Assembly: GCF_003073045.1 (NCBI RefSeq)
Contig: NC_037590.1
Coordinates: forward strand, 1,390,016 to 1,454,015
Source: Pomacea canaliculata
Lineage: Eukaryota > Mollusca > Gastropoda > Architaenioglossa > Ampullariidae
Reading direction: 5' to 3'
Length of the DNA stretch: 64,000 nucleotides
Each line of letters begins with the position of its first letter. Positions within the stretch are counted from its first letter, which is position 1. This document shows positions 1 through 63,606 of this stretch, piece after piece. The translations under genes were made by a program, and so were the position numbers. The notes beneath the pieces were generated by a model that did not search any database, was not told where the DNA came from, and was given only the letters and a program-made list of their open reading frames with translations.

Positions 1-2635
1 CGATGAGATGTTCTGATGGTGTGATGGGGCCATTGCCAAGCTTAACCTCAGCATTTTGAAGCCATGGCAAAGGTCTCCAAGCTAACCACTGTAATCAAAC
101 AATAAGTATATGCTATACAACTTCCAAAGTTCCTCAATGACTGTCAGCCATTACAGATCTATTTTAGTAATGAAATTAGCACATGCAAGTCTTTTGGGGA
201 ATACCTCATCTGTCATGCTGATATGTGTAGGTGATTGTGTGTATGAAGGGCAAAGATGCATTTGCATGTTTCATCCATCAAGCAACTGGCTTGAGTACAT
301 ACAGCAAGACAATCCTTATGCTGCTGTAGTTTTTTTTTTTTTTCATATTACATCTGCCTGGCCGTTTCTTTTTTTTTTCATCAGTTAACTACTAAAACGA
401 GACATGTTTGTACAAAGCTTCTGGTTTAGTCACATTCTTTGTTTAAACTTGCCAAGACTAACAGCGGAGACATTTGCAAGAGGCTAAGCATTGGTCTTGG
501 CAGACAGCAATTCACTAATACACATCCATGATGAAAGTGATGCCAGAGATGTATTGCACAGATGTAAGGAAAACCCAGTAGTGAAAAGTGATGGTGTGTG
601 CATACATCACATGAAATAATTTAAAATTTAGAAATGGTCCCAGAATTTTATTCTGCATTAAAGAAATAATCAACTAGAAACCCAACAGTTATGGCAAACA
701 CATTATTCTTGCACAAAAGACTCCCCAGAGATTGCTCATTAACATTAATGCAGGCTGCATGTACACTTGATCTCTTGGTTCGTTTAATTACCAAAACAAA
801 TGTCATCAGTAAAATCATTAACTTTGCACAAACAACAAAATCTACCAGAAAATTGATCAACCTACCAAAATTATCAAATCTATTATCACTTTTTAACAAT
901 GCAGGCCATGCATACAATTGCGAAAATGACAAAGTACTGTGAAAATAATCATGTGCTAACCTTGCTTTATGCAGTTGAAATCTGAAAAACGATTTGCCAA
1001 GACACTTATAATGGTATTTTGTGCAATCAAAGGCGCTACATGAGTCTTCACCAACTCGAAACTTCACGCCATCATCGAACCCATTAGGTGGCGCTCTCAT
1101 CGCAGAAAAACCCGTATGAACCATCTTGTAGTATTTACTATCTTTGGTGAAATGCTATGATAAAATTCTTTGAACTCTGCATTTCTCACTTTGGGTTACT
1201 AAAAAAGTAATGACCAAATTTCTCATACTATCATGAAAGTAGGCAATGCCTCATGAGTACATAACCAAAGCTCTCACATTCCATGAGATCAAGACATAAT
1301 TGAGGTCTATGTGTGCTTTTGTAGATAAAAAATATTTTATAAGACTTTTGTAACAAATTTTTGACAGCACTACATTACATTTATTTGCCAGCAGTTTATG
1401 ACCTCTGACTTGGGTAGGCCCATAAAAGGTTTTGCTCACCTCAGAATTGTCCTCTGGTAACAATCCTGGAATGGGACAAGTCAGGGTTTTCACCTGCCTA
1501 CCAAAGTGCAGTGATACCTCCAAACTGTAGTTACACTGAAGAGAGCAAAGAATAACCTTTTAGTACAGACATGAAACAAATCTAAGCAAGTAAATGGATC
1601 TTTAATCGCTCTCACAGGGTGTTTGATGGTGCAGCAGCTAAAGAACCTGTCACCATGACAAAAAATCGGGTGTCATGGGTTCATATCTCCGTTCTGATGT
1701 ATCTCAAGCTTGTGCAACTGTGTGGTGCTGGGGAAAGACATTATATAAATGTGTCATATTTATCATCACAACTGGAGGTGTGGCAAGAAGTCACCAAAGC
1801 AATGTACAAAGATATAGTTTTATGTTGGTCAGGAAACTGATGTTGCTCTGTATCCATACTTTGCGAGCTTATTTCTTGCTGCTGTTTCCTAGGGCTGTTT
1901 ATTGATGCAGAGCTCTCCATGTGCAACCATGTTAGTTCTGTTGTGGCAAAATCCTACTTTTTGAGGACTTTAGGCAGACTACAGCCCATGCTTACTCAAG
2001 CTGCTGCCAACTCACTTGCTGTGGCTACCATCACATCACAATTAGACTACTGTAACAGTGCATTGTGGAGGTATACCTGCTACTCAGTTGGATCGACTCC
2101 AAAGAGTTCAAAACACAGCTGCCAGGATTGTCACCCGTGCAAAGTCGTCCACTGAGCACATCACCCCTATGCTTCATTGGCTCCCAATGAACAAGCGCAT
2201 TGACCACAAAGTACTTTCGATTGCTCAGTCCTGCATGTCTAAAACGGCTCCTGACTATTTGCAAGAGATAGTTCCTCCTTACCAGCCGTCACGTAGCCTG
2301 CGCTCAGGCTCCCAGTCACGCTTCTGTCTCCCTGCAGTGGAAGACACCAACAAAAAGCGCACTGGAGCCAGGGCCTTCAAAAACGCGGCACCTAAGCTGT
2401 GGAATGCTCTGCCATCGTCACTCTCCACCATCACCTCACCAACCACGTTTCGAAAAAGGCTGAAGACCCATCTGTTTCTTTCAAAACAGCCTTAAACAAC
2501 CAAGAAACACTTCTGTCTCTATTTTTTACTTTCCTGGTGTTTTATATATTTCTTCACTTTATTTTTTCTTCTTTTGTCTTTTTTTTGTGCTCAATGAGCA
2601 TTCTTCTGAATGGATACCTGCGCATTACAAATAGA

Positions 2636-2688
<53 letters not shown>

Positions 2689-5600
2689 GGTGTGGTATGG
2701 ACCACTATAGGAAGATTAACCCCAGGTAACTGCTTCCACTTCTTCCAGTCAATATTTACAGTGATGGTGGTGTGTCATTTGTGCTGTTAACCATGATTTC
2801 ACTTTTCTTCTATTTCATGCTCATGTTTTTAAGTGCATCAGCTTGTGTTAATCGGGTAAATTTTTTAGGGTATTTGTTGCTTCAGATGGGTTATTTTCAA
2901 GATGATGTTAAGAGTTCTAAAGCACAGCCAGTGGCACCATAGGACAAAAAGTCCATTATGTCTGCATTTCCAGTGTGTTCCACGCTCTGGGGCCTGATGT
3001 GTAGAGGCACTCTGGTGTATGTGGCACATCAAGGTGGTGCAGCCTAATGTCAGTCCAGATGGTAGTTTGATTGCTAGCACCAAACAGATTTTGTACTGCA
3101 TCTCAGGCATATTTTCACAGAGTAATTAAAAAAAAACGGGAAAAAAAAGAGTCTTGAAGTGTTCCAGGTGTTGCTGAGAAATCAATCTGATGACTAGTTT
3201 TCTAGTGTTGCTTTTTGTGTACTGGAATATTGAATAAGCACCTAGATCTTAAACTCCAGGTCAAAAAAACCACAGAGATAGTTGAATTTAAAAAGCTAAA
3301 TTCCCTGTGTTGAGGCAAGCTCAATGCACTGTCCTAAAAGATAAAAACAAATCAAAGACTCTTGCACATAAAAAGAGTTATGTTATTGGTGCCAGCAACT
3401 AAGGCTATATCACAGCAAGGCAGACAGCCTTGTAAACAGATGCCACATGCAGAGAAAGAACACCAAGCCAGACACAAGAGCTGAACCCAGGACAGCCAAA
3501 CCTCACTGTATTGGTGACAGGTGCTAACCATTGCCCTGCACATAAAACAAGCATCTCTACCTGTATGAACGTTCCATGAACAGATGGCATGACAGTGCAT
3601 CCATCACAAGTCTTCAGAGGTACCAATATATTGTCAAGTACTTGCAGTCTGAAACAAAATTGACACAAAACCTCTAGATAAAGTTTTACTTGTTACTTAA
3701 TGGTGTCAAGACTACCCACACTAGAAATTAAAATGAAACAAGATTACCTTCTGCATATATTTCTATAAAAATACCATCATTTCTACTTGACTAAAGTGAC
3801 TAATATTTCCAACATAATTTAACCCTCTTAGCATTGCATAAAAGTAAAAGTATTACAAAGACTGGCTATAATAACTGAAGACTGTAAAGATGACAAAGGA
3901 TGATGTTTTGTTTTTTTATTATTGCTGCTCTGAGGTAAACATTAGACCAAGAAACCTATATGCATTTTTGGAAAGGAGAAAGCTAGAACTTTGCAATAAA
4001 ACTAATGAAAATTGACCTCCCCATGCTTGCTTGGCAAAGCCACAAGCGTGGCTCATCATGCTATAAGGGTTAATGTTGAGACATAATATTCTTGTCTAGA
4101 ACCAGTCCTCATGAATAACACTGACCTATGTAGTTCTTGTGGCCTAGATCTTAATAAATATTAACTTCATATAAATCTTCATACCTCTTATATATTTTAA
4201 GACCACATGCTGTACACAATTGTAACTGCACGTTATTTTGCTCACCCAGGTGGTGGTAATATACCAACAAGTTCCCTAATGGTTGTCACTGTATCCTCCA
4301 AAATGACTGAGGACTGATCCATTCTAGATCCATCCAGTTTCTTTGACTTGTTTGGCACCGTCAGTCTTAAAATTTGCTGCAACTGTGTATATATATATAT
4401 ACACACACACTCATAAATCTCACATTATAATGTGTACACACTAAAGAATTTTTCATTTTTTGGTCTACTTTTTAACCAAATAACAAAGTTTGAAGACCAC
4501 CCAGCCTGTTCCTTAAGTTATTTATTTCAGAGTACCTTGATGCCAATTTCTGTGATTGTTGGACAATTTTTGGAAAAACTCATTCGAAATCGCAGATTTT
4601 CTCCTGCCTTGACATAGTTTTGCAGCAACCTGGGGATTGAATAAACAGAATAAAAGAAATAAAGAAAATACATCTGAGGTGTTGTAACAAAACATTTAAT
4701 CCCATGAGTCTGTCACAATGAACAATAGGCCCTACACATACACCATCTCAAGTTTTGCAACCTTTCTGGTTTATTTGGATTTAAAGTGGATGAAAAATAG
4801 CAGCAGAAATACCAAAAAATATTTAGCATGCTGACGAGAACACGTAAAACTCATTATGATCTAAAAATATGTTGGTAGCAGATTCTTCTGCAAGGAATAT
4901 TTTGGCAAAACACTGAACAATAAATTCACTGCAATTGCATTTTTAAAGAAAATTTTGCTAGTAGACAACATTACATAACTGGTAATTTATTACAATTGGG
5001 AATAAAAGGGCATAGATAAAGTAGGGGAAATATAAAATAAATGGATAACTTAAAATAGAAGATCAAAGCCCAGGAAAATGCCACAACATTTAAGGGATGT
5101 GTTGATGACTTAGTAGCAACCTCGTTGGAGGTGGGCCTGGGAATAACATCTTTTTAGGGTTAAAGTGCTGGTGAAGGAAACAGGTGCAGCTCAGGTGGAA
5201 ACATCCTGGGTCACATGACAGTGCTACAGCCAATGATGCAAGTGCGTTGTGAGAATGACAGCAAGCAGGAAGACTTCTTACTTCACAGTGACATGCATCT
5301 TCTCAAAAAATCTTCCTGGTGGCACAAAAGTCTCAATCTGGTCCTCTGTTAGGTGATTGTCTCGTATATTTTCTGGAGTGACAGCAGTTACCACAACATC
5401 TTGTGACACCTGAAGTGGCACATGTGACACTTTCAGTAATATACTGTACTCAGGAAATCTATGACAATGACACGGAGAGCGCCTTTATGTCCATGAACAC
5501 TCATGCACACACAGTATATGTCAGACAAAGGTTTATTTTGAGCACAAACATGCATGTTTGTGCAAGCTCTCTCTCACATGTTCACACACACACACACAGA

Positions 5601-8600
5601 CACAAACATAGATGTATACACATACAATATGCATGATGACATATGGCATGCAGGTCTTACAGCACTGCATTACTTTACCAACAAAAAGACATTCTTGAAA
5701 ACACCAACTGAATATTACACCTACATAAGACACCAACAAATGAAAAAATGGTACACCAACATAAGAGGGAATGCACATTTAACAAGAGTGGAGATATCAG
5801 TATAATTTATATGAAACAATATAACCTTGACTCTTCATACAGAAACATGCAAGAACATATAACACACATTCACACAAACATTCATGCATGTGGGGCACCA
5901 AGAGTGTAATTTTTGCTCTCTAGCAATACAATTCATTCTATAGCTATAAATTCATTCTATACACACACACAGGATGGTTAGAAACTGGAATACCCAGAAA
6001 AAAACCAACAGTCAGCCTTCTAAACAGGTATCATATCTAGAGAGAGGTATGTCAAACCCAGGATATAAACCCTGACATCAGATGGTCACTGTCATGATAA
6101 TAGATTGACACTTTAGGGACTGAATTATGGCAGCAAAAGGTAAGTTGCAATAATCCATGAAAGCAAAAAAAAAAAAAAAAAAAAACAGCTATCTTGATGG
6201 TGACATCAGCATTTAGATAGCATTAAATAGTGAAGATGAAAAAAAATTGTCAAAGAAGAGATAAGGGGATGGTAGCAAGACTCTAAATCAGCGGTTCTCA
6301 ACCTTTTACTTGTGATGCCCCCCTGACGAACAAAGGTATGTAAGCAGCAATGTAAGCTAATTTCACTAATACCGGTATAAGAAACTACAAAAAATGACCA
6401 CCTTCGCGCCCCCCTTGTAAGCACGTTGAGAACCGCTGCTCTAAATGCTGGAGGTTAAGGGAATCATGGTCTCAGACAATCAAAGACTACAGGATGTTAA
6501 GGAAATCACGGTGCCAAACAATCAAAGACTAAAGGAGAAGACAGTAGAAAGGTGCTGTCTAGTGTCAATGAATGATGCTTCAGGTTGAGTTTGTTTTCAG
6601 TCATTCATTTCTGGATGTCAGAATAGCAGTGACTGACAAAAGAATGATTATCAATTTTTGTTGATGGAGATCTGCATAACTGGTGAGGGCAAGATAGCAG
6701 CAGACAAGGTGGGCAAGCACTAAAATTATACCACTGGCAGTGGTGCTGAGGGGAAGTGCCTCTGTACAATGATGGGGAGGGTGGAAGATTGAAGTACAGG
6801 CAGAAGATAGTGGTGAGTATAATAATGTTCACTAAATTGGTGAAGGATTACATGCTTTAGTTGCAACTCACACTCATAGTCTCTGCGCCCACAATGTTTG
6901 CATGCAGCTGGTATATCACACTCGCTGACCATACCCGCGAAGGCATTTTGCTGCTAGCTTTGAAAGTCCCTGCAATATTGTTTTGTTATGAACCTGAGCC
7001 ATGGCTATCATGATATTGAAACATTGGTGTCATGGGAATAAAATCTGTTATCAACAACATGAAGCACTGGTACCATCATAAAATATAGGCCTTTTTCCTC
7101 ATTTCCACAGAATTACATGCTCTTACACAGTCTACTGTTTTCTCTAAATTCTCAGGTAATCACCTGCTTTTCTTCTGTATTATCCTTATTAAATTCACAT
7201 TTACAGAAAGTACAAAATGAAAATATCTCTATAGTGTTGTATAAGAACAGACTGTTGGATTTTCTTTCACTTAGTACCAACCTGGAATTTGGTGAGGCAG
7301 CTGTAGTCTGAAAGGGAAGCAGTAGCTACCAAAGGCAAAAGGTTCTGAGAAGTAAAACCAATGCACTTTGTTAGAAACTGTGAGCATAGATCTATACACA
7401 AATAGCCAGACATAATGTGCAGAGAACTACATGAAAGGAGAATTTACTCACAACACGTAGCTCTTATTATCAATGAAAAAATATATAAAAATATCATAAA
7501 GGGATCATGATGGTAGTGGTGGTGGTGATGATGACTGTGACATCCTTTAAGAAGTAAACCACAAAAGGACTGATGGTTTGAAATGCATTTTACTTTATTC
7601 ATAACTTATAACAATCATAAATAAATACTGCAAAAAATCTGCTGATTTAGTGTGAAAGTATCATTCGAAGCCTGCTCACCATTCTGTACAAAGAGATCAA
7701 TGTAACAGTAGTCCACATAGTCTTGTTTTACCTGATGGTTGATCGTCTGTTCCTCCACATGGATCTCACTGCACACTAGAAGTCAACCAATGTATAATGG
7801 TTAAAGTGGGTTATGAAGGAGATCAAAAAAAATTTTTTTTTAATTTAAAACATCACATATAATAGTCTCCCCTTCCTACTTTTTATCTATGTCACAAACT
7901 GCTCAGTTCCCTGAACAATTTTTATACAATTATTTGACTAGCACTTAAAAGCAATCCTCATAATTTTAGACACCATTGGTCATTATGTGGCTTTTTGAAG
8001 ATCAATTTGTATCCTAAGCATAACAGTCAATAATATCATGTATATCTGGATGCACAACTGTTTAAACGTGTAACCAATGTGAAATGTGATTTGTAATAAA
8101 AGAATATTGCCTTAACTGAGGAATGAAGGAATACAGTCACACACCTGATTCTTTTCCTCTGAAAGAAAGTTGCACACCGTGGGCTTCTGTTGGTGTCAAT
8201 ATATTCAGGTATACAGCACTAGAAAGAACAACCTCACAAAATAACAGCAGTATTCTTTATCAAATTGAAAGAATAAGGGAGACATGGTAAAAGAAAATAC
8301 AATAAAATGTATATGCATGCATTAAAACTCTTCAATACAAATTCTTCAGGTAATGCTTTACTTGGATAATTATTATTCCTCCAATTACTGCACTGTGAAT
8401 TTTTGCATGTGATTGTTTACATTTATCGTTGTCACATGTTACATGGGAATTTATGCCCATATAAGCAAATAAATTCACAAATGCACATGGGTGCAGATAT
8501 TTTAGGTGTGAAAAAACTATAATTTAAATGTTTAAAATGTTTACAGGTCTGACCATTTATAATTTTCACTGAGTACTCTACTTGTGTGTGTGTGTTATAC

Positions 8601-8848
8601 ATAGTGTGCATGCATGTTTATGTATTAAAATGCACTTGATCCCAATCTGGAAATGTGTGCTTGTGCACTTGTATGTAAAGTACTGAAAGCCTAGTTTCAG
8701 GGACACAGTACCATGTAAATGTTTAATTGTAAGTGACTAGGTGGGGGAAAAATGTAAATGATTCATCCACAAAAAGCACAACTTACCCACATACATACTG
8801 TCCTGGAAGATATTCTCCTTTATCAGACCGAATGAGCAGCTGATTCAT
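1..8848 (-). CDS. Arrestin-domain protein, paralogue A (partial at 3' end)
   Basis: Spliced gene on the minus strand. Coding exons in order: 8848-8787, 8218-8145, 7775-7680, 7344-7282, 6969-6872, 5409-5282, 4629-4536, 4382-4246, 3648-3561, 1535-1440, and probably 88-1, which is open at the window edge. All have AG/GT borders, and the reading frame is kept across all joins: 312 codons up to the last exon. The start MNQLLIRSDKGEYLPG and the following strand with AVYLNI and GVQLSFRGKE look like the N-terminal arrestin fold. GSYCFPFRLQLPHQIPG fits the conserved arrestin-N stretch, and the CNYSLEV exon fits arrestin-C. Each exon has a counterpart in the plus-strand gene at 20653-30457. Arrestin-fold proteins are cytosolic adaptors in receptor or cargo trafficking; the cargo here is unknown. 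The last exon (WLAWRPLPW...NAEVKLGNG) is only weakly like its counterpart and is the least certain part. Exon 5 ends ATG AGT before GTGAGT, where paralogue B has ATG AAG. Confidence 0.8.
360..435. repeat. Short dispersed repeat, copy 1
   Basis: A T-run followed by CAGTTAACTACTAAAACGAG and then ACAAAGCTTCTGGTTTAGTCAC. It resembles 10388-10460 in the same orientation, which has ACTAGAACGAG and ACAAAGCTTCCGGTTTATTCAC. It lies in the last intron of arrestin paralogue A. The family is not recognised. Confidence 0.45.
1919..2495 (+). pseudogene. LINE reverse-transcriptase C-terminal remnant
   Basis: Two overlapping frames (about 1919-2080, then 2058-2495) together read as the C-terminal part of a non-LTR retrotransposon polyprotein. 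Motifs include ITSQLDYCNSALW, then PATQLDRLQRVQNTAARIVT, MLHWLPMNKRID and the closing APKLWNALPSSL...FRKRLKTHLF. This pattern is typical of CR1/L2-like LINEs, from general family knowledge. A frameshift near 2070-2090 separates the two pieces and no polymerase core precedes them, so it is a 5'-truncated dead copy. It lies in intron 9 of paralogue A, antisense to it. About 140 bp downstream is a (CAT)n tract that may have been its tail. Confidence 0.8.
2636..2688. repeat. (CAT)n microsatellite
   Basis: An uninterrupted CAT repeat of about 17 units, 140 bp beyond the LINE remnant. It produces a spurious poly-histidine reading frame. Confidence 0.97.
3387..3540 (-). mobile_element. tRNA-derived SINE, copy 1 (reverse)
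   Basis: The reverse complement matches the copies at 15531-15641, 27471-27660 and 63421-63606. All share a B-box-like GGGTTCA, the core CTTTCTCTGCATGTGGCATC, and TATAGCCTTAGTTGCTGGC near the 3' side. It sits about 20 bp downstream (in gene orientation) of the donor of exon 9 of arrestin paralogue A (exon end 3561). The tRNA origin is inferred from A-box and B-box-like promoter motifs. Confidence 0.8.
6289..6438. mobile_element. hAT-type MITE
   Basis: A 150-bp element with terminal inverted repeats CAGCGGTTCTCAACC / GTTGAGAACCGCTG. It is flanked by perfect 8-bp direct repeats CTCTAAAT at 6281-6288 and 6439-6446. An 8-bp duplication with CAG...CTG ends is the hAT signature. There is no coding capacity. 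It lies in intron 5 of arrestin paralogue A. Confidence 0.93.
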
Positions 8849-10387
8849 GTTGTTAATAACTGACTAGGTCTTTTTCTTCATAGTTTCCTACATAGTTTGA
8901 TCAGTTTATGGAGATGTATTAGCTAGGTTGTTGGTGTTTTATGCTGTCAGCAGCTGAGTTATGGTCCAGTGCATTCCTGCAAACAAGTGTTATATCTAAA
9001 GTCACCTGAGGTTTTCAGTTGTTCGTGTGGGTCAGTTGCACAATAAATAATTTTAAACTTTTAGGGCTTTAGATAGTTTCATAGAAAAAGTGCACAACAC
9101 AATTTTACAAATCTTTTATTTAATACAAGGGCGAGTGTTGAACGATTTAATTGCTGCTTTATTATTAGTTTTAGAAACATTTTCTCTCACAAGAGAACAA
9201 GAGTTCTCTCTCACTCTTAGATCGATCATGCCAATGGAAAGTTTTGAATGAATTTTTAACAAAACAGCCACTTGTTCCTGTTTAAAAGAAAAAAGATCAC
9301 AAAAAGCTGCAGCGTAGTATTTTGCTCGAAAAGGATTTCTGAAAAGTGCTCACTGCGTAAAGTGGGGAAAGTGACAAAACTGTGATAATTCCACGATACT
9401 CAGTTTTGTGCTAAATAAGAACCTTAAAAACAAAAAAAAAAAAAATCTGCATACTTTTACATCACACAAACACATGACACCCGCCTCTACATTAGCAGAT
9501 AATTACGATCGACTGTTCGCGGCTGGCGCAAGGAGCACTTGATGTTTTCTGTCGACGCCCATCTCAACCAAATGAGAATGGACAACAAGCGGATAAACCA
9601 TTTGGGTATTGCCACAAGATCACAGTCAAAGATGCACTCATCCCTTCCAAAAACAACAAAGACAATTCTCAGAGTTCATGCGTAACGCAGTGCCAATTAA
9701 GCGGCAAACGGGATTGTGAGCGTCGTTCACTGTCACCATGGAGTTTGCCACCCAAGCTGAGCACTTTCCTACGCCACTACATAGCTAGATAATTGAAAAT
9801 ACTTTGTCATTTTTCTTAAAAAGATTTTTTCGATATCTTTTTCATCGTAGTTGTAATTTTAAGATGATACTTTTTGCTTTCTTATGCACTTTCATTTAAC
9901 TCACTACCCTAGTTCACAAAGTTTTGTGATCAATTTTCACCCACCTCCCATCGTTCTACAGGTCTGACATTTTTTCCAGTGACTTATTTCCAGTGACAAT
10001 GTAATATTAGGTCATCTCCTGCAGTCCACAAGTATTACAATCTTTTTTTTAATTAAATTTTATAAAATAGGTTGAATAAGGGGAGATAGGTAAGGGCTCC
10101 TCTAGGACTAGTAAACTATATAGGTTATCTCCCCCCTTTAGTTTTTCCTATGGCACTGTAAAAATAAAACAAAAATCAATAACACAATTCAAAAAGGCTA
10201 ACAAGTTTTAAATGAAAATACTTATTTCAGATGCACCACAAATGGTAAAACACTTTTTTCTTGAGGTCTTGGGATTTAAAAAAAAATGCATATAACTTGA
10301 AATATAAATGCGACGGGCAATCTTGGAACACGATATCGAACTAATAATATCCCTGGACGCTGATTTTTCCCTGGACTGCTTGCAGAC

Positions 10388-10460
10388 GATTTTTTTTTTT
10401 TCAGTCAATTACTAGAACGAGGCTATAGTAGTATAGTTACAAAGCTTCCGGTTTATTCAC
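10388..10460. repeat. Short dispersed repeat, copy 2
   Basis: A direct-orientation relative of 360-435: T-run, CAGTCAATTACTAGAACGAG, then ACAAAGCTTCCGGTTTATTCAC. It lies exactly at the left edge of the GC-rich segment and may be the end of that segment's element. Confidence 0.45.
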
Positions 10461-12350
10461 TGTGGTGTAGCGAATGACTTCAACCATGGACATATATAGA
10501 CCTATACGGAACTTGGGAACACTCCAGGCCCCTCATACCGTCATGCGTGTCATCCCTGGACTGGGGCAGCGCTTGGTATCCATGTTGCCGGGGAACTGTC
10601 GTGGGGAAGTGACGACAGACAGTCGGACGGGGCACTTCAAGAGGTGCGTCATTGTTGTACCGCGACTGTCAGTTACAAACCCGCTACCCGCCTCATCACA
10701 CGCGTGGACTTAAAACGTGTAGAGACTAACATACAGCAAGAATTTGTCGTAGGAGAGCAGCAGTAACAACTGCCAGTTTTGTTGATGTGTGTATATGTGA
10801 GAGTGGATGGCGGTTTTTACGGGAATCAACAACACTGTAATATTGGAAGCTAAGGCAGAGGGGGAAAGGAAATAGGCACTGCCCTTACGTAAAGCTGGCC
10901 CCGAGAAAAAATAAAGTCTCCAACACCTCGCCCTCCAACGACCTGAAAAGGTTAGGGGATGACCTTTACCTTTTTACCTAACACTGGAAGTACGAATAGC
11001 ACGGATAGTACAGTATAGCAATCCTAGGTCTAGCTAGGTGGGATGGACGGACACTCGTAGTTAAGCCTTTACTACACTCTTGACTACTCCGCCATCCACG
11101 CCGACATAATCTTGTGCGCGATGCACTTCCACTAATTGCTAATTAACACTAATTAACGACTCGAGCCCTCAGCGCACTCCCCAATAAACAACACAACGCA
11201 ATTTACTGGAAACAAAGTAATTATTAAGTATAGAAAAATGTCGAGAGCTTATGTAGAATACAAATGAAAGGAAAAAAACGAACCTACAAATGAACAAATT
11301 CCCTGCCTTAGTTGTCTAGGGTGTCCCCATTAACCTACCCCCTTAATTACCACTAATCCAGGTATCTAGTGAGTCATTCGGTCACATACACATTCGTCGC
11401 TCAACACCTCGCACGCTCATACAGCACTTTGCTCGACCAGTAATGTCTTTGCCGTGTGGGATGGAATTACCCTTTGTGGTGTGACACACAATTGTCCTTG
11501 GTTTCTTCGGACGATTGTCTTTGTGACACGGAAGGCCCTCCCGATGCGACGCAGAAGAGATGGTGAGATGGTCTGTTGACCGTTGATCTTCCTTGTCTTG
11601 GCGGCTCTCCCTGGCACCATGACCCAGGAGGTATGGTGGTCTCCCTCGCCTGAACTTCCCCTGAGGTGCGAAGCGTGCTGAGCACGGAACTCAGACGAGC
11701 ATTCACGCGTACCGTCCCTCTCGACAGTGTGCACTCCATTTCGGTCACCGGTCGGCCTGTCGATCGTTACCACAGTCACCAGCGCCTGGCTCTGTGACCC
11801 AAGTAAAGTGTCCCACTGCGCTGCCAAGAGCCGCTCGAGGGTTTGCAGGGGTTAGAGGTCACTCTCCTTGACGCTCTGTTTTAAGAGCAGGCTGCACAAC
11901 CCTTAACCAGTCCCTTGTTTGGTGAAAGGACGGACTGAAGATCACCGACTTGATGCTTGTGACGAAGACTTGAGTTGCGAAGTCTTTTCTCGCCCTGATG
12001 CGTACTATTCAAGAATTTTGTGGTGAAGCCACAATTTCGGCTTTAACACAATATGAAAAGGGTGGCTTGGGCCACACATGCACCCGATTGGTCACTCTCA
12101 CACACTCATTGTCACAACTACGAACAATCATCACTGTTAGTGCGAGACACAGTCGGCCAGCCTGGGTTTCCCCCGCTGCCATGGACATGACTCGTGTCCG
12201 GTCATCTTTGACAACGTGGTGGTATTCCCCAATGCTCCACCCCCACGGACATTGGTGTACCGCTATGTGACCTTCCACACGAATCTGCTCAACTTAGGTG
12301 GGAATGGTGTGGCACCCGCAATATTTCTACTCTTCCATAACATACAGCGA
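10450..12350. other. GC-richer segment of unknown origin
   Basis: Base composition rises clearly against the AT-rich surroundings, with many CG dinucleotides. The longest reading frame is a minus-strand 136-codon frame at 11417-11827 that is rich in Arg, Ser and Thr. I recognise no domain in it. No long terminal repeats or target duplication could be made out. It could be an old LTR or other retroelement insertion, a CpG island, or an unrecognised non-coding gene. Confidence 0.3.
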
Positions 12351-13892
12351 CCACTTTCAGAGGAGCCACATTGTCCTATGTATTTTGCATAATTTGTGCG
12401 CATAGAAAAAAAAAATCCCTTTTGTTGTACTCGAGTCACATGTTGCTAAGTCTTTAATTGTTGAGGGGAGAACAGTGGTGGAGGATCGTGAGCTTAGGCA
12501 TTATTGTACACAGCTTTCCACTACAAGATTATTTTAATGTGGGTGGTAAGAGATGCATTATAACAGTTAGCCATGTGCCCAGTTTGCTGGCCAATGTTCA
12601 CGTTTTGACAATAAAAAGCAAAAGCATTCTAACATTTCTGAATGGGCAATGGCGTTAATGTTGGGGAAAGAACATAGCAATCAACCCTGAAGCAAAATAC
12701 AGGAATAATAAAGTAAAAAACATTTAGTAACAATTCCAAGCACAGAAAAATCGAACTTTGAATTTTCTTACTAAAAATCTGCATGTGTGCATACATACAC
12801 TTTCAGACATGTTCATGGCTCATCAAAGCAACTGTAACCACACAATATTTTCAGTAAATCTCTGCATGCACAAACTTGTAGGGCACGCAAATAGCACCAT
12901 CTTTCCACTGAATAATCAAACAGGCTTTATATATCCATATAGATACACACATAGTCATGTAAGTTGTACATATTCTTGTGTAATCTTTGTAAACAGTGTA
13001 TGTTCTTTTTAAATCCAGTGAGCTCGCAACTTATTATCAGAATAACATGTCTTTGGTAGTACTTCAAAAAAAGCTTTTTTCTCGTATCATGCTTTGAGGC
13101 CACTGGAGTTTTTATTTATTTAAGTGGCTTACATTTAGTATTTCCCCCACCCCACAATGTTGGTCTTATCTGAAGCTGAGAATGGCACCCAAAGCTGTAT
13201 TCACTTTGTTTAGGTCTTCAGTAAAGAACTGGTTAAAAAGATAGACCTTCCTATCTACATAAGTTTATTTTTAGGAATCATTTCTTTTAAATTTATCACA
13301 AATGCATTTCAATATATCCTTGCCCAGTCATGTTAGCATTTATGTGGCTACAACTCTTACCTGTTTAATGCAAACACCATCACATGACAAGATTCCTGAA
13401 TATGGACCACCCTTATTTCCACTTTTCATATATACAGTCCTTAATTAAGATATGCTGGAGTGATGCAAAACCCACAAATTTTAAACATTTTGTGGAACTG
13501 ATGTCATTAAAAGTGATAGGATTTTAAAACCATAGCATTGGAGTTCTGTTGACTTGCTGAATTCTCTAAATCAGACACTAAAAATGTGCTCTCTGTTACA
13601 GAGTTTTACAAAATGTCATTTAAACTAGTAGCATGGTCAAAACTGACCAACTGCCAGAAATGCTTATGACAGAAATACAGATCTTAATAAGAACGTCTTA
13701 GAACCACAAGTTGACATTAGCGACACAACTTTCATACTTTTACATAAGAGTATCCGAGGTCAGCAAGGCAACCAGATAGTACGCAAAACAGATGTAAACA
13801 TGTGAAAACATGGATGATAACCACTATACAGCAGTCTTTCTGACCCAGTCTACACAGAAAATAAGCAGACGTTTTTCTGGAGTAGCAGGATG

Positions 13893-19800: not shown

Positions 19801-20043
19801 ACTGGTTAATAAAAAGAATCTGAAACTTTTTCTCTCTCACTCCCTTAAATCAGCCGGATTGGTATTATCAATTTTATTTACAAGTGGAAGGAGTAGAACT
19901 AAAAGCATCGATGAGAAGAGAAAGAGAGAGAGATGCTTACTGTCCATGCCAGGAAAAGGTAAAGGAAGTGATCCAATTTGCTGATCAAGAGCAAATTCTA
20001 TATCAAATTTTATATCCGATACGGGTGCTACTAGCTCCTGCAT
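13893..20043 (-). CDS. CPSF4: Cleavage and polyadenylation specificity factor subunit 4 (CPSF30)
   Basis: Seven coding exons: 20043-19941, 18210-18007, 17879-17784, 17288-17195, 16817-16655, 15171-15124 and 13967-13893. They give 783 nt (260 residues); human CPSF4 is about 269. Five CCCH fingers (C-x7-C-x5-C-x3-H, the third C-x8-C) sit at residues 41-59, 68-86, 96-114, 124-142 and 148-166. Two CCHC knuckles follow at 187-200 and 234-247, then the family ending GHLAFLS. The protein is the RNA-binding zinc-finger subunit of nuclear CPSF, which recognises the AAUAAA signal with WDR33. The start MQELVAPVSDIKFD matches the family N-terminus; an in-frame ATG five codons upstream (20058) is less likely. 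Splice sites are GT-AG with consistent phases. Intron 5 carries the Tigger element. The first knuckle is extra compared with the single one in vertebrates. Confidence 0.97.
15257..16147 (-). mobile_element. Tigger/pogo-type DNA transposon remnant
   Basis: The ends are CAGTGGAACCTCGACTAAC and the inverted match TTAGGTTCCACTG, flanked by TA on both sides (15255-15256, 16148-16149). On the minus strand from ATG 15884-15882 it encodes a broken CENP-B/Tigger-like N-terminus: a basic MAPKKIKSN start, a frameshift, then the helix-turn-helix segment MISKYEGGMRVLDITAKYGM. A second DNA-binding part (EKLLLVYRNKKHLEDISFCE) follows after a SINE insertion. The DDE catalytic part is missing, so this is an internally deleted, dead copy. 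It lies in CPSF4 intron 5, in the same orientation as CPSF4. Confidence 0.9.
15531..15641 (+). mobile_element. 5'-truncated SINE nested in Tigger, copy 2
   Basis: It is flanked by an 11-bp duplication ATTATTTGATG at 15520-15530 and 15642-15652. It begins inside the SINE at GGGCACGCTG and ends in a C-run. The duplicated sequence belongs to the Tigger coding region, so the SINE inserted after the Tigger element. 5' truncation with a target duplication is the mark of LINE-driven retrotransposition. Confidence 0.93.
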
Positions 20044-20652
20044 TTTGGTTTTGTGCACTCACAAAACTATGGCACAGTAATACGAGTAACAGCGTTCTCA
20101 GTCTCACAGGAAGTGCTTGTAGCTAGTTCCTGTCATGCGCTGAAGGCAATGTTCCCAAACTTAAAAAATGTTGCCATATCCATGCTTCCTTGTTTTCGGA
20201 GTGCATGCTGAGAGAGGAAGACGATTTAATACTACCAATTTACCTTTCGAAACGTGCTATGTAACTTGTTTGATGACTTGAACATACATCATGGTGCCGT
20301 CAAGAGATGTATAAATGAATGAACATGACATTTTTTTTTATTTCGCGCTACTTTCGATTTGTCCTATTTTAGTATCTTTATTCTTGGTATCTGAAGATAA
20401 TTTCACAAACTGTTATACATCAGTTAACTATTTGATTTCAGCGAAATGGAGATTTTATTGTATAAAACTTCGTCATTTGTTTTTTTCAAAATATTCGATA
20501 GATATTGATCGTGCTGCATGAACTTTTAACTCGATAGAGTCGTCTGCTCTAGTGTGAGCAGAACATGCGGCGATCGGACTATGCGTTTTGTGTTGGTTGA
20601 TTATTTTTAGGGCGACTCAGTGATTTTTACATTAATTTTAAAGTTTTGAAAC
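20044..20652. promoter_or_regulatory. Putative bidirectional promoter CPSF4 / arrestin B
   Basis: Only 609 bp separate the start codons of CPSF4 (minus) and arrestin paralogue B (plus), so both 5' UTRs and promoters must share or abut this stretch unless further 5' exons exist. No clear TATA box was identified. The segment 20500-20600 has more CG dinucleotides than its flanks (for example TCGATAGAGTCG and GCGGCGATCGG). Confidence 0.5.
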
Positions 20653-23600
20653 ATGAACCAGCTGTTTATTCGGTCGGACAAAGGGGAGTATCTTCCAGGA
20701 GAGTTTGTTTGTGGGTGAGTATAAATTATAATGCATGCCATGGGGTTGACTGATTTCTCTCGTACTTACGTGTGAGTGTGCGAGTGTTTAATTCCCTTCT
20801 CATGGTGAAATACACTTAATGTAAAATAATGCTTACGTCTGAGATTACACAGTAGCAATGGCAGGCAGTTGCACACAATGAGTACAAAATTTTCAATTTT
20901 TAGTATTTAATTATTTTTTGTTTAACCATTCTTCCAGCTTAATTATAGTCCGCTAAAAGTGCATGTCTATGAGTGATGGAAAAATAGTTCTGTAAACGTT
21001 TGTTAAAACAGCGCTGTGTACCTGGACATTAATGCTCCAACAGAAGGCCATGGCGTGCAGGTATCTTTCCAAGGAGAGGAATCAGGTGTGTTGCACCAGA
21101 TCAGAATCGAAATGTTTAGCCACTGTATTCCAACTTCTAGACAACTGCTAGCCAGTGTTTGATATGTGTGAACCAGATATAATATTAAACAGATTTGAGA
21201 TACTACAATGTATGAAACGGATCTGTGATACTACAATATGAGATTGATTTTGAGATACTTAAATGAATTAATTTTATATACCATATATATTCCAAACTCC
21301 TGAAAATATGAAGCGCATGTAGTAAGTTCCGGAAAAAGGGTAGATCTTTGATTATTTCATGTTTGAAATTTTGTATTTCTATATTGTCAACTTTGCATCA
21401 TTTGCATATTGTTATATTTCATTGGCACATGCAGATGTCTAAAGGAATGGACAGTTTTGTGATTGGGAGAGTTGAGCTGTTAAGTTTTGGGAGTTTTTTT
21501 TGAGTAAAAAACAAAATTTGAAAAATAAAGATATTAATGGGATCTTAGTTATTCTTAACTGGAAAACAGCTCGATGGATGTACTCAGATTGATAGTGAAG
21601 GTTCAATCTTCTGAGTGCAAATGTCATCAATCATTGCTTAGTTTTGATCAGTTCCTTTAATAGTGAGAGGAATGAAAGATTCCTCATGGAATACCTGTCG
21701 TTTGGGCTCATAGCTACTTTGTTGGTGAGGCCAGTTTAAAGACTGCTAAATTTCTTGTTCACCTTGTCACACTTGGAGACCAGGTCTTGGATTGAATCAC
21801 TTGCAGAGCATCTGTAAACAGGCCTTGAAGTGGAGGAGCAATAGCAACAGCCAGTGCCCTCAGTTCCTGAAGGAGCGTAGAGCTCTGTAGGTTTTGGCTC
21901 TAAGATCCCCACAGGAGACTACTAGGCATGACTCAGTGTGTAGCTTCCAGTTTACTGTAGGTAACTATTAGATTTTAAGCCTGTTGTGCCTTTAGGAGAT
22001 AATTTCTGGACAATGCACAACAGGCTAAATCTAATGTCTTCTCCAGACAGATGAAGGTAGCTGTCTGATGTCTGAGGTAGTCTTCAATCTGTGAATATGT
22101 TTATGCTATTTGGTTGTTGCTGCTTGGTGTTGTGGTTAATTAGTGTGACGTGTGGCTTAATGCCTTTGTCTTTAACACTCTGGATTTACTTACCCTCAGC
22201 TGGATGATGGACAGCATGCCCTTTGAGCACAGAGAGTATTATTTGCTTGGGTGGTCACTTAGACTTCAAATGTTTATCATATAATGAACCTATCCTTGGA
22301 TAAATGAGGTTACTTCTTTTGTTGGTAGCAACTTATTTGACCGCTTATGACATCTAATATTTGTGGCTTTTAGTGTGTTGTGAGTTACAAGTGAATGGAC
22401 TGAGGACGAACGTGCAGGCTAAACAAGAGTATGTGGATTACTGTCACACTGATCTCTTCACACAAAATGGTGGGTAACATTGAGGCTGAACTGATACATT
22501 TAGAATGTTAATGCACGAGGTAAGACTAGTACCTTATTATAATTTTGAAACAGCTTTTCCTGCACATGCAGGTTATGAGAGACATGAATGCACTGTGCTG
22601 TTGTAGCTGTGTGTAAATGGTGTTAATGTGCTAATGAATATGACTCAGTGCATCTTGAAACTGAAACTCTCTTATCAAGAGATTTTAAAATAAGATGCTA
22701 TTTAACTGAGCAGGAAGCACATAGCAGTTGAAGGAGGGGGATTGAACTGACGGCTTATAACCCAAGTAGCAGACTTTCTGCTATACAGCTGTTCAAGGAG
22801 TGGGAACGGATTCTCTTTATACTATCAATTATTCTCCCTACTCGTTCCCTTTCCACCAGCCAAGTCACCATCACTATTGATAAAGACCACTGCAATTCCA
22901 ACGCTCATAGCTTACCTTATCGTCATTTTTCAGCATTGATTTATGTTAGGTCCATCAGCATTTGATATCAGAATATTGGACATTAAATACAGCAAAAGCA
23001 AGAGCTGTTTATCTTTGTGCTTGCCATTTACAATTAAAATTATTGCCTTTTTTTTTTTCCATTAGAGCCCTTTGCCTGTGGCAGTTACTGCTTCCCATTC
23101 AGATTACGGCTACCACACCAGATTCCAGGTTGTGAGAAACATGGAACTTGTATAATGTATGGTAAAACTGATGAAAAAAAAGGAAGCTCACCATTTCAAT
23201 ATCACTATTCAAGAATGATCCTAGCAAAAAACATATTTGAAATTCACTGTTTCATAAATCAACCCTATAAAATCCAGCATCTGAAAAATGTCTTTATTAA
23301 AGAGAATTCTTATTTTGTATTTAAATAATACTGTTTTGCTAATGGACTATATGTGTAGACATTTTTGATTTACTATTTACTAGCCAGGATCCTTATTAAT
23401 ATATTTCCCTTCTTTCCAGGGACTTTTAAGACCACCTGCATTGAAACATCTTTTGCATGGTCAGCCTGTGTGATGTATCAGCTGCATGCTAACATTGCAG
23501 GTGCAGAGACTATGAAGGTGAGTTTGAAAATATCTACACAAATTCAGGTCTACAGAACAATTCTGCTTAATTAAATGGTATTAGCAAACACTTTTGTGTT

Positions 23601-26600
23601 TCAAAGATGAATAGTGGCGGCTGCATCCTCTTACCAGCACACACATACTCAGGTGTGTAGATATGCTATGGTACGTAGATATACCATGTATAGACATGCT
23701 GTGTGTGCAAAATTGTGTGAATTTGAATTCAGGTTTGTCCACAAACGTGCATTTACCTGGTGAACCATTTTAGAAGAGAACACAATTTCAGGTTTCACAA
23801 GATATTGTGGTGACTGCTGTGACACCAGAGAATCTACGAGACAATCATTTGACAAGAGCACATGAAATTGTTTTTGTGCCATCAAGAAGACTATTTGGTC
23901 AGAAGATGCATGTCACACTTAAGTAAGATACAATCTTTGTCAGTTATTAGTAATGATTTTCCATATAGCAGATATTGTTAAACAAAGCGGTCTTTGCCAG
24001 GTTGATTAGTAAAGAATTTCTTAAATTTTTTTGTATTCTTTACTGTCTGCCAGTGTATTAATGCAAATTACACAAATGTTATCTTCAATTTCAATTTAAG
24101 TAAACGTATTTTATTAGAAAATGTCAGACAATTTCAGCAGTTTTTTAATGCTGAAATTACTCGGCTTTCACTAATATAGTTATTGTAATGCCTTTTCCAG
24201 AATCACAAGCAGACACTGCTTGTTATTCTGAAATATTTTGGCAATAATTTCTCCTGTTTTCTGTACATTTTTTCCATCAAAGTGAACCTGATATTACATT
24301 TTCATTCAGTAGATGTTACTTGTGTACTGAATATTTCATCTAACCAGCTTTATAGCATTATGGATTTACTAAAATGGTTTGTACACATCTTCATAAACTC
24401 CTTTTCTTTCTTTTCTCTTTGATGGCTTTTCTTTAACAGACTGATAAAGAACTTTCTTAAAACTGGAGAAAATTTGCGGCTTCGTATGATTTTCACTCAT
24501 GGCAATCAGACAGCGATACATGGCTTCTCAATGAAGGTAAGGCCTTAGTGACAAGCAGCTATGTGCATTGGAAGATGAGTATTTATTGAGGGAAATCATA
24601 CTTGATCTTGAAATTTCATGAAGCATTCTAATTGCTTTGGTGCATTCTGTGAAAGAAATACTTTTCAAGGACTAATGCAATTTTTTGTTTAATAATTAGG
24701 TAAAGCTCAGTTACTTTCTACCTAAATAAGGATGACACTTTTGTTCTTGAGATACATGCCTACATGCACAGAAAGAGGACAACAACACAGATGTCAGGAT
24801 TATACATGGATATATTTATATTGTAAATACTTCAACCAATGGGAGAGTTGGGAACAGATGTTATTTAGGTGTATGTGTGTACAATTTTGACATTTTTTTA
24901 TCGACCTTAATCTGTGCAGGATTATGTTTATAGGGGTAGAGCTTGAGAACAGTCATTGAGATTTGGTGAAATGGGATCTTGCATAGTATTTAGAAGAAAG
25001 AAACTGCCCCTGCTAGTCTTTTTTGATTAATTTGTATAAAACAAAGTGGCTCCAAGATACTAATAGAATAAAGATAAATGTGGGAGAAGCAGACTTGTGA
25101 GAAGATAAATAAAAACATGAATAAATAAGTAGTACATGTATATAGAAATAAACCAAGAAATGAAAGAGTCCTCAGATATGTACAAGCTTCATGGGTTGTA
25201 AACCAGTGATGTATCCTACCTGAAACTAAGAGATGCTGAATGAAGGAAGAGAATTTTTGTGTACTGACTTAGCAATTCAATAAAACCAAGGACACATTTT
25301 TTCAGTGGTCAGTTGTTGGTTTTGTGGAGAGGATCTTGATTGTGGATAGGATTTGGTATTGGGTTTGTGTTAGAGGTAGGGACAACATGGGATTAAGGTA
25401 CATCAGTGGTTAGTGCATGGCACACTAGCTAGTTTACTATCTGTGTGTGTGTGCAGCATACTTTCCCCAGTTGACCCAGCTGGTGACTAAGAATGGGTTT
25501 TTGGGAAAGGAAGGTAGTGAGGGAACAAAACAATAGATTCATGTATAAGTAATAAACATTAAATATTAAAGAAAAGAGGGTAAAATAACCCACCCTCTTC
25601 CAGTTAATTACAACACTTGGCATATCAGGCTATTTCTAAAACTAAAACATAACCTCATGCTCTAAAAGCTTTCAGATAAAATATAAAAATGAGGTTAATT
25701 ATGCAAGTAATAGTCCAGATATGGTATTTATACAACTCTTAAAGTCATAAACCAACAGACTGTTAACATGAAGGTACAGTAGCTGAACAAAATTACACTC
25801 TGGACTGTGTATAGCAAATAAAAGGATAGTCTTAAATTTAGGAGCAATGCAACTTAAGGGATCTAGCAATAAGTAAAGTACACCTCTGCTACAGACCTGG
25901 CAGGCCTCAAAGAATGACAAATGGAAGGGGACACCATTAACAGTAACTAACCCCTGCAGCTTCACAGAGCAGTGAGCATCCTCCCACACTTACCCTAACT
26001 CATTGCCTTCTTCACCCCTTTCATCCCCTTCCCCCATATTCCCCATCCCCTACAATGCCTTTAGGTTGAAGCACTTGTTTCTCTCAAACACAACATTAAG
26101 AACAAAGGCATTGGGGGGGAGAAGAGATGAGCTCTACCCTCACAAAATAAGCTATCCCCAAAATAAGTTCGGTCTCCAACACTTAACTTCCAATTGGACT
26201 ACATTAGCTTCTCTTTTTTGGAAAGTAGTGGGGTTTGGTTTAGGGAAACAGGGAGTGTTCTAGCTATACAAACTGTAGATCTCAGACATTTTTTGGGAGG
26301 CTGTAAAAGGGACATTTTAAAGGAAATGTTTGGTTTTGAACTGAGGCTTCAAAAGAATCAGGGATGTCACTGGTATGCAAGTATAGTTACGTAAAAATTC
26401 AAGACTTTTCCTTTGTATGTAAACAGCTGCTTCAGACTCTGACACTGACAGTCCCATCAAAATCCAAGATAAAGGAGGTACCAGGTGTGGCCGATAAGAA
26501 AGTGACAGTCATAAGAGAAGTTGCTGGTATGATGCCATCAGGAGCCTATAATGTTGGGTATGTCTTTTGGTTATATTAGACTGGTATGTGACATTATGGA

Positions 26601-29600
26601 ACGTCTATTTATAATGTTTAAAAATTAGGTCTACCTTTTGGTGTGTTGTGGCTGATTATCTTGACAGAAATCCTGTATTTTTCATTACACTTTAGTGAAT
26701 TTATATCACTTTCTTTCTACAAAGACTACCATCTATTTCTCCTTCATGTTTTGGCAATATACCACCCAGATGTTCTAAAGTTTAGAACATTTGTTTAGAA
26801 TCTAAACAGACCGCTAGTGAATCTGGGGAGCATTGTCAACAAGGCTGGTGGAGTGGATGCTGACATCAAAAGTCGCATCAACAAGGCCAGGCATGCTTTC
26901 AACAGCCTACTCCCCATCTGGAACTCCTGAGCATTATCCTTCCACAGTAAGACCCCCATCCTCAACACCAATGTAAAAGCAGTCCTACTGTCTGGTTCTG
27001 AAACCTGGAGTGACAACACGGTCATCAACAAGCTCCAGACCCTTACCAACCGATCCCTACACCAAATTCTGGGAATAAGATGGCCTGAAAAGATCTCCAA
27101 CAGCATCCTTTGGATAAGAACCAACCAGAATTCTACTAGCCAAGACATCAAAAAGCGCAAATGGGGCTGGATGGGACACACCCTGCGCAAACCAGCTGAT
27201 ACCATTACCAGGCAGGAACTGGACTGGAACCTTCAGGGGAAGAGGAGAGTTGGGAAACCAAAGCAGACCTGGAAAAGAACAGTAGAAGGAGAGGCAATGG
27301 ACGTGGGAACCCCATGGGCCCAACTAAAGGGGGCTGCCCAAAACTGGGTTGACTGGTGAGGTGTTGTTGCGGTCCTATGCTCCACGAGGAGTAACAAGGA
27401 ATAAACTAAACTAACCCTGATATTCTAGACTCTAGATCTTTTTCAGTCAATCTTTCCTTAGATTTTTCCACGGCAGTCTGAGGGCATAACAGTTAGCGCC
27501 TGTCGCCAATACAGCGAGGGTTGCCTGTCTTGGGTTCAACTCTTGTCTCAGTCACGCTGTTCTTTCTCTGCATGTGGCATCTGTTTATAGGCCTGGCTGC
27601 CATGCTGTGATATAGCCTTAGTTTCTGGCGCAGCGTAAAACACCAATTCCTTCCCCCTTCCACCTTGGACTCGTCCTAAATCTCCATTTGCATCTCACAA
27701 TCATCCAAGTTACTTTCAGTCGTGGACTTGTCAAATCATCTTAGAAGGTTATCCTGGATTTACTAACATCTGCACTGATGATGGCACAAGGAGCATGCAA
27801 TGTTTTGAAGTAGATTAATTTTGTCCCTACAATCCACTCTGTCCACTAGTTTAGGTTACAAGAGGGCTAAATGGTCTTAAATGCTGAGTTCCATGCTCTT
27901 CATTTATTTTCCCACTTCAGTTAATTCTCATTCATTTCTGACTCTTCCCTCTGTTTTTCAATCTTTACTTTTTTTTTTTTTTGCTCTTACAGTGAAATAT
28001 TCCTTTTTTTTTTTAACAAGGGTAGAAATTGTTTTTATCTGAGTACCATGCCAAGGTATTTAAGAGTAATCTGAATCAGTCAGGTATTTATTGGACAGAG
28101 CACATTAAAATCACTCAGAAGTGGGCATTAGGAGCTGTGCATTTTTACGCAGAAAAATAACTTAATTTATAATTAGATGATAAACTTTTATGCATTTCAG
28201 CAAACACCTGAACTACAGAAGAATGAAGTGTAACATCTAGGAGGGTCTAACAACTTGATTTTCTTTTTCCAAGAATCAATAAATGCAGTGACACAGTTTT
28301 CATTATACTTGTCATAAATGGAAGATAATTTTTTCCTGAAAAACTTTTAAACCATGTTTTGTAGGAAGTTTTATCTGAATTTGTTTCAGAAATTGGCATG
28401 GTGTGGACAACCTCATGATACCCCTGAAGACTGAACATGGACAAAATATTTTGCCCAGCGTCCATGGAAAGTTTATCAAGGTGCATTTTGATGCCCGCAT
28501 GTCCTAGAGTTATTCAGATCCCACCTTTTTCTATAAATTCCTTTTATGATAATCTTGGAAGATACAGTGTTCACATGTATACTCCTGTTTGATTTAAGAA
28601 ATGATTGTTTCTTGATCTGGTTTGATCTTTGTTGTATATGTTCCATTGTGAGAGACATGCATGTTTGAAATATTTTCTCAGAAAATTATGCCAGGACCTA
28701 TTCAGATCTCTGGTCATTTAAAGGATTCATTTTATGTTAAAAATGTTTACAAGGGCACAATTTTTTTTCTGTAAAGAGAACAAAATATTGTGGAGAAATA
28801 CTGGTAGCGTTTAGAAGAGCAAAATTCAACAGACTTTTTTTGCTTAAGATTAATAGTCATTTTTAAAAAGTGGCTTAGTTCTTAAGATTGCTTGTAATTT
28901 TAAAGGTTACCATTAAAGTTTACTTGCTGACATGCTCTTCGTGCTGATTTTTTTTTTTGCCCAGTGTGAGTACAGCTTGGAGGTGGGTCTTAACATGGGC
29001 AAATATGTGAAGACAATCATTTGCCCCATTCCAGGTGTGTTACCAGAGTGCAACACTGAGGTGAGATGAGCAATCTGTTTGCTCAAAGATTCTATAACTG
29101 TGTGAAGCTTAGGAACTTCATATGACTGCTTGTGCAAGTTTGTATTAATGAGCATGTATGATTATTCGTGTGTGTATGCATGCACACATACAAAATTAAA
29201 ATTATGTGCATACATTTTTTGTTCAGATTAAGCCAATAGAACATATAATCTTTCTGTCTTCCATATGTACATGTGTCAGTAATTTTACCGTAAGAATGCA
29301 TCAGTGTCTACATAGGTCAGTAATGTTACTGTAAATACACATCAGTGTGCACATGTGTTTGTAATTTACTGTAAGCATACATCAGTGTGTGCTTAGGTCA
29401 GTAATGTTACTGTAATGTTATATCAGTATGTACATAGGTCAGTAATGTTACTGTAAACATACGTCAATGCATGAGGTGGAGCAGAAACATACAGTTGTAA
29501 GTGAAAAAGTTATTTATGTTGCATATCTCAACACAGATTTTGAAATCAATTTACAAACAGCAGATACATTCTTTCACTTATTAAAAGTACTTTGTTACAT

Positions 29601-30457
29601 TGATGTATTCTTACAGTAACAATACTGACACATGTACATTAAGATGATGCAATGAATGTCTGAACTCATAACTTTAACAAGAAACCATTAATACATTTTA
29701 CATTTTTAATACATTTTATGACTGATGCTTCATGCCAGCATCTCATAGACCTAGCTGATGTTGGATTATTGGCCTGCTTCTTCTGTCACTCAAATTTAAC
29801 ACATTGCTGATGATTACAGTGGCTGTCATGGGAACCTCATCCTTGGTTCCAAAATGCTGAAATTAAATTGGGAACAAGTCCCATCACCCCAACAGAACAC
29901 ATCCTGGGTGAGGAAAGCAACAATTGACTTTTCATATTTGTGTCTTAGTGGCTGAGATATGTTATGTAAAAGGCAAGGTAAATGATCTTAAACAATAAAG
30001 CCTGTGATAAGGACCACAACCTTAGTGGGAGACTCTGAAAAGAGCACTGTTTTGTTATTTCATATGCTGCTATTGGACCTTGTCATGGATTGCTAGAACA
30101 CTGTGTTTTGTCATTGTCATGGATTGTCCCCACTGTGAATGCTGAATGCTCATGCTATACTATAAAGTGTACTAGTATGCCATAGCAATATTATTGATAT
30201 AAAGATCTGTTTTTAATGATTTTAGGGGTCATATAAAGATGTATTTATGCATTATAACCATATGTAACCTAGAATAACATTTCACTTTTTGCATTTCTGT
30301 GGTACTGAAATAAAGAATTATGTATATGCATTACATATTAAATTTAATCCATTTTGTTTTCCTTCCACAGAAAGTGGACCTTTTTCACGTTTGCCCAGAT
30401 TCCAGGATCTGTAACATTTGGGCACCAGCAGAGATTACCTTAAAACCTATAGGTTGA
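20653..30457 (+). CDS. Arrestin-domain protein, paralogue B
   Basis: Eleven coding exons: 20653-20714, 21012-21085, 22374-22469, 23066-23128, 23420-23517, 23792-23922, 24440-24536, 26427-26557, 28390-28480, 28965-29060 and 30371-30457. They give 1026 nt, 341 residues. N-terminal arrestin features: DKGEYLPGEFVCG, then AVYLDI, GVQVSFQGEE, and ACGSYCFPFRLRLPHQIPG followed by GTFKTT. C-terminal arrestin features: ENLRLRMIF, LTLTVPSKSK, SVHGKFIKCEYSLEVGLNM and PIPGVLPE. It is closest in layout to alpha-arrestin (ARRDC-like) adaptors, but no PPxY motif is visible in the tail, so binding to NEDD4-type ligases is not supported. Phases agree at every join, and exon 9 (28390-28480) is needed to keep the frame. 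The short tail after arrestin-C ends AEITLKPIG. Intron 8 holds LINE and SINE fragments and intron 10 a tandem repeat. VPS26-like arrestin folds are an alternative, less well matched. Confidence 0.9.
26804..27412 (+). pseudogene. LINE C-terminal remnant, RTE-like, copy 1
   Basis: The frame reads GSIVNKAGGVDADIKSRINK, an in-frame stop after PIWNS, LQTLTNRSLHQILGIRWPEK, KWGWMGHTLRKPAD and GKRRVGKPKQTWKRT, ending near LCSTRSNKE. This is the post-polymerase tail common to many invertebrate non-LTR elements. Stops and the lack of the polymerase core show it is 5'-truncated. It sits in intron 8 of arrestin paralogue B in sense orientation. A related copy is at 38820-39760. Confidence 0.85.
27471..27660 (+). 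mobile_element. tRNA-derived SINE, copy 3
   Basis: Near full-length copy with A-box-like AGTTAGCGCCTGTC and B-box-like GGGTTCAACTC, then the core TTCTTTCTCTGCATGTGGCA and the tail AAAACACCAATTCC. It lies in intron 8 of arrestin paralogue B, just downstream of the LINE remnant. Confidence 0.85.
29275..29478. repeat. Tandem repeat, about 41-bp unit
   Basis: Roughly five copies of a unit beginning GTCAGTAATGTTACTGTAA and containing CATCAGTGTG. Unit starts fall near 29275, 29316, 29357, 29397 and 29438. It is a degenerate minisatellite in intron 10 of arrestin paralogue B. Confidence 0.85.
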
Positions 30458-49064: not shown

Positions 49065-63105
<14,041 letters not shown>

Positions 63106-63420: not shown

Positions 63421-63606
63421 GAGGCAGTGCAGTGATGCAGTGGTTAACGCCTGTCACTAATACAGTAAAGGTTGGCTGTCCTTGGTTCAGTTCTCATCTC
63501 GGGCACACTGTTCTTTCTCAGCATGTGGCATCTATTTATAGGGCTGGCTGCCTTGCTGTAATATGGCCTAAGTTGCTGGCTTGGCATGAAACACCAATCT
63601 CCCTTA
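63421..63606 (+). mobile_element. tRNA-derived SINE, copy 4
   Basis: Near full-length, with A-box-like AGTGGTTAACGCCTGTC, B-box-like TTGGTTCAGTTC, core TTCTTTCTCAGCATGTGGCA, and tail GAAACACCAATCTCCC. It has the same organisation as copy 3 at 27471-27660. Confidence 0.88.

Follow-up and report, generated by a model that had tools for sequence, protein, structure and literature searches.

The window analysed here, 64,000 nucleotides of Pomacea canaliculata DNA, contains two arrestin-domain genes, A and B, with a CPSF4 gene between them. We consider A and B, with a probability of roughly 70%, to be paralogues that go back to a single, old event at the CPSF4 locus, in which an arrestin-domain gene was duplicated in inverse orientation at the DNA level; we infer both the sisterhood of the two genes and the single-event origin of their layout. 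The features of the locus are as follows:

8848..1 (window edge), minus strand: gene A, 11 exons, 341 codons within the window, 3′ end beyond the window
8848-8787, 8218-8145, 7775-7680, 7344-7282, 6969-6872, 5409-5282, minus strand: gene A exons 1-6, splice model
4629-4536, 4382-4246, 3648-3561, 1535-1440, 88-1, minus strand: gene A exons 7-11, splice model
9501..12500, no strand assigned: CpG-rich region upstream of A, with observed/expected CpG of 0.64-0.91 across six bins of 500 bp
20043..13893, minus strand: CPSF4, seven exons, 264 aa, in-frame ATG-to-stop splice model
20043-19941, 18210-18007, 17879-17784, 17288-17195, 16817-16655, 15183-15124, 13967-13893, minus strand: CPSF4 exons, splice model
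20044..20652, no strand assigned: CPSF4-B interval, 609 bp between diverging start codons, CpG observed/expected 1.12 vs 0.37 for the window
20653..30414 or 30457, plus strand: gene B, 12 exons, ATG at 20653, splice model
20653-20714, 21012-21085, 22374-22469, 23066-23128, 23420-23517, 23792-23922, plus strand: gene B exons 1-6, splice model
24440-24536, 26427-26557, 28390-28480, 28965-29060, 29820-29907, plus strand: gene B exons 7-11, splice model
30371-30414 or 30399-30457, plus strand: gene B exon 12, splice-site reading

The exon-intron structures of the two genes correspond closely. A sequence-only reading of the same DNA had listed ten matched exons, and their A/B lengths were reproduced in full (62/62, 74/74, 96/96, 63/63, 98/98, 128/131, 94/97, 137/131, 88/91 and 96/96 nt), with AG and GT present at the intron borders of these ten pairs in our splice models. 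The count itself rises to eleven: an additional pair of 88 nt lies at 88..1 in A, at the window end, and at 29820..29907 in B, with 19 of 29 aligned residues identical. The claim of shared intron phases also held, as all ten common introns agree, an order matched in 18 of 100,000 permutations. Nine of the ten map onto the same aligned codon; intron 8 adjoins an alignment gap and has no mapping. In exon 1 the first 20 residues share the 17 identities previously reported (18 of 21 when the split codon is counted).

At the protein level, 209 of 335 aligned residues are identical (62%); BLASTP gave 209/348 identities with 13 gap positions (E 9e-155), and the local score of A against B was 1086 vs a maximum of 61 among 1000 shuffles of A. 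Identity is unevenly distributed along the protein: it amounts to 70-90% in exons 1, 2, 4 and 6 (86% in exon 1, 90% in exon 4), 56-66% in exons 3, 5, 10 and 11, and 45%, 42% and 52% in exons 7, 8 and 9, respectively. A tblastn search of the window for a third copy returned, among the matches listed, a best match outside A and B of E 0.73.

Gene A begins with an ATG at 8848 and remains open over 341 codons with zero stops and canonical borders at each visible junction. The short exon 12 of gene B has two plausible acceptors, with which translation would stop at 30414 (356 aa) or at 30457 (361 aa), and the frame stops at 348 aa if this splice is omitted. Either form of the B C-terminus is a plausible prediction from splice-site reading; 30457, the end proposed earlier, is therefore one of two plausible ends, with 30414 as the alternative. 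Intron 10 of gene B harbours a tandem array of 41/81-bp units at 29264-29466.

Both proteins matched Arrestin_N and Arrestin_C above the Pfam curated cut-offs, in agreement with the arrestin-fold assignment made from the letters. By these domains, A and B count as arrestin-domain proteins, or alpha-arrestins broadly defined. Protein B additionally had LDB19 and Rgp1 matches below the Pfam cut-off, and neither protein was assigned to a family in NCBIfam. In the PDB, single-sequence searches with A and with B returned nothing at E up to 10; the sole PDB match of a two-row profile, a spike-fibritin fusion at E 0.12, was taken as chance. Relatives were also sought among viral contigs (96 pattern matches, 0 confirmed) and prokaryote contigs (35 pattern matches, 0 confirmed), both of which are unsuited collections for an animal gene.

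The short motifs set further bounds on the assignment. A scan for [PL]PxY found none in the 341 aa of A within the window and none in B with either last exon, so that the (P/L)PxY motif of alpha-arrestins in the strict sense is missing from B and from the 341 aa seen of A. A pattern scan revealed no clathrin box and no AP2 box, either in the 341 aa of A or in the 356-aa form of B. YxxPhi occurs three times in A and once in B, and CxxC once in A; these matches were set aside, since such short patterns are common.

With visual and beta-arrestins A and B share the two Pfam domains, but differ in having no clathrin or AP2 box in the scanned sequence and no PDB match. The earlier statement that neither is an obvious classical visual or beta-arrestin fits the missing boxes, in the sequence scanned, and the lack of a solved-arrestin match in single-sequence searches. 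ARRDC1-4 and TXNIP likewise have the two domains in common with A and B, which differ from them by the lack of [PL]PxY in the sequence seen and of any PDB match. VPS26 and VPS26C/DSCR3 belong to a fold clan common to arrestins, according to a passage of PMC2515105, whereas A and B had no Vps26 match in Pfam at E up to 1. The same source uses the PY motif and helix I to tell alpha-arrestins from visual/beta arrestins. PMC2699828 doubts both criteria, that of helix I because models of ADC2-4 (ARRDC2-4) show this helix, and describes ADC5 as having neither helix I nor a (P/L)PxY motif. ARRDC5 is the only human alpha-arrestin without a PY motif, as stated in passages of PMC10110545 and PMC9105457. 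A and B resemble this vertebrate PY-less protein in combining Arrestin_N and Arrestin_C with the absence of PY in the sequence seen, a likeness that consists of domain matches and a missing motif.

Divergence between the copies is considerable. Over 335 aligned codons, NG86 gave dN 0.27 and dS 1.06, i.e. dN/dS of about 0.25; YN00 gave dN 0.27 and dS 1.12, and LWL85 dN 0.26 and dS 0.85. Bootstrapping (NG86, 200 resamples) placed dS at 0.85-1.47 and dN/dS at 0.17-0.33. At fourfold sites in codons with the same first two bases, 37 of 92 differ; per-exon dS was too noisy for a test of gene conversion, exon 7 yielding no value. A blastn comparison of the A and B regions produced nine matches, eight exonic and one to a dispersed repeat. 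With dS around 1 and matches confined to exons and this repeat, the duplication appears old. Judged from the coding sequences, the pair is under purifying selection on average, the pairwise ratio being silent on each copy's share.

A recent duplication or an assembly artefact was rejected, as introns and flanks are unalignable and dS is about 1, and so was retroposition, because A and B both retain the ten common introns. The inverted layout and the old DNA-level duplication proposed previously thus stand on opposite strands, matched introns and a dS of about 1.06. We propose that a PY-less arrestin-domain gene would have been copied once at the DNA level and inverted, with CPSF4 ending up between the copies, and that both would have stayed intact, as suggested by open frames, intact splice sites and a low pair-averaged dN/dS.

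The layout itself is that of a local inverted pair, with matching exon-intron structure on opposite strands of one locus and 11.8 kb from start codon to start codon. According to a passage of PMC4546093, the copies are inverted in 77 of 143 young same-chromosome human duplicate pairs, and the youngest same-chromosome duplicates of C. elegans are mostly adjacent and inverted. Given this frequency of inverse orientation in both species, the arrangement of A and B is ordinary; like the duplicates described there, A and B lie on opposite strands at one locus as DNA-level copies. Compared with the young human duplicates of that source (dS up to 0.1), A and B are far older by dS and have an extra gene between them.

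A single inverted duplication is the simplest account of this layout. A direct tandem duplication followed by an inversion or by a move of CPSF4 would give the same arrangement, and a dS of about 1 would have left time for such a later rearrangement; no breakpoint is readable, since introns and flanks are unalignable at this distance. This sequence of changes requires two events, however, and inverted duplicates are common at birth in the account of PMC4546093, so that we consider it unlikely.

Intron positions can persist over long times. A and B might accordingly belong to a larger arrestin-domain family that shares ancient introns, as non-sisters whose proximity is secondary, a possibility that the high dS (about 1.06) and such long-term retention of intron positions would accommodate. 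It is opposed by 62% identity across nearly the full length, by the 11.8 kb between start codons and by the ten of ten phases in common, and we hold it to be very unlikely. The idea that gene A is a decaying, non-functional copy finds some encouragement in its lower Arrestin_C score (35.9 vs 47.7 bits in B) and in a 3′ end that falls outside the window, but is contradicted by 341 stop-free codons with canonical borders, by two arrestin domains that exceed the cut-off and by the pair dN/dS of about 0.25; the odds of it appear minimal. The preferred reading therefore remains one old inverted duplication with two maintained copies. Among the papers searched, none joined ‘arrestin domain-containing’ and ‘CPSF4’, and for mollusc, snail or lophotrochozoan expansions nothing relevant appeared among the matches listed, judged by their titles and the opening of their abstracts.

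CPSF4 was found, as previously placed, between A and B as a complete gene, head-to-head with B. Its zinc-finger part matched solved CPSF4 at E 1.1e-73, and both CCCH and CCHC fingers were recognised by Pfam. Judging from arrangement and composition, CPSF4 and B probably share a divergent promoter, with 20044..20652 as the candidate. The CpG values fall short of proving this: over 128 bins of 500 bp, whose median CpG observed/expected is 0.27, the two bins that cover 20.0-21.0 kb come sixth and seventh, and the bin at 16.0-16.5 kb, inside CPSF4, equals them. The CpG-rich stretch at 9501..12500 is a possible separate promoter or 5′ region of A. A and B may therefore differ mainly in expression, B having the putative promoter shared with CPSF4 and A its own. 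Together with the uneven divergence of exons, these differing putative promoter settings lend slight weight to the ‘possible specialisation’ suggested from the letters.

Regarding function, we lean slightly, judging from the fold family, towards the products of A and B being trafficking adaptors that bind endosomal cargo. They would be short cytosolic proteins of barely more than two arrestin lobes, which would bind membrane cargo and steer it through the endosomal system. Because the sequence seen has no PY motifs, A and B would lack the means by which PY-bearing alpha-arrestins recruit Nedd4-type ligases, and would in this respect be like ARRDC5. A bolder scenario, which we regard as quite doubtful, would see in A and B a duplicate, conserved lineage-wide, from a PY-less arrestin subfamily that has no solved relative; one copy would be tied to the CPSF4 promoter and the other released, and the diverged second lobes (exons 7 to 9) would bind different cargo. 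If A and B are sisters, they offer a readable case of a short arrestin-domain adaptor duplicating and then diverging; they add one pair to the little-studied PY-less arrestins and open no new class of system.

Mobile elements and repeats are scattered over the window. A short dispersed repeat, SINE-like by size, is present in four copies (3391-3534, 15531-15637, 27492-27657 and 63437-63603), which are 81-91% alike across aligned stretches of 74-156 bp; Rfam and tRNA scans of the window gave no matches. It sits in intron 9 of A (3391-3528) and intron 8 of B (27492-27629), and was considered and dismissed as a trace of the duplication, since further copies occur near 15.5 kb and 63.4 kb. Another dispersed repeat, of 0.6 kb, is present at 26804-27413 (B intron 8) and 39159-39764; its two copies have 84% identity and resemble retroelement remnants. 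The former contains a frame with a DUF6451 match below the cut-off, whereas the frame of the latter had no Pfam match. In the CPSF4 intron between exons 5 and 6, a minus-strand frame at 15566-15841 with a CENP-B_N match below the cut-off is perhaps a DNA-transposon remnant. A hAT transposase dimerisation region was identified at 33816-34094 on the plus strand (E 2.3e-10).

Among other genes, a JNK-type MAP kinase gene is represented by pieces at 51074-56956 on the minus strand, where 51074-51403 matched MAPK8 at E 2.1e-49 and 56624-56956 is kinase-like, below the Pfam cut-off. Pieces of an alpha/beta-hydrolase-like gene lie at 41714-43476 on the plus strand: in the first, a GHSAG motif precedes a long stretch rich in Ser and Glu, and the second passes the Peptidase_S9 cut-off in Pfam, its top PDB match being an esterase (E 0.0041). 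Finally, a palindromic stretch of 0.39 kb at 38423-38812 is 79% self-complementary and includes a 39-bp tandem unit containing CTAACCCTAACCC.
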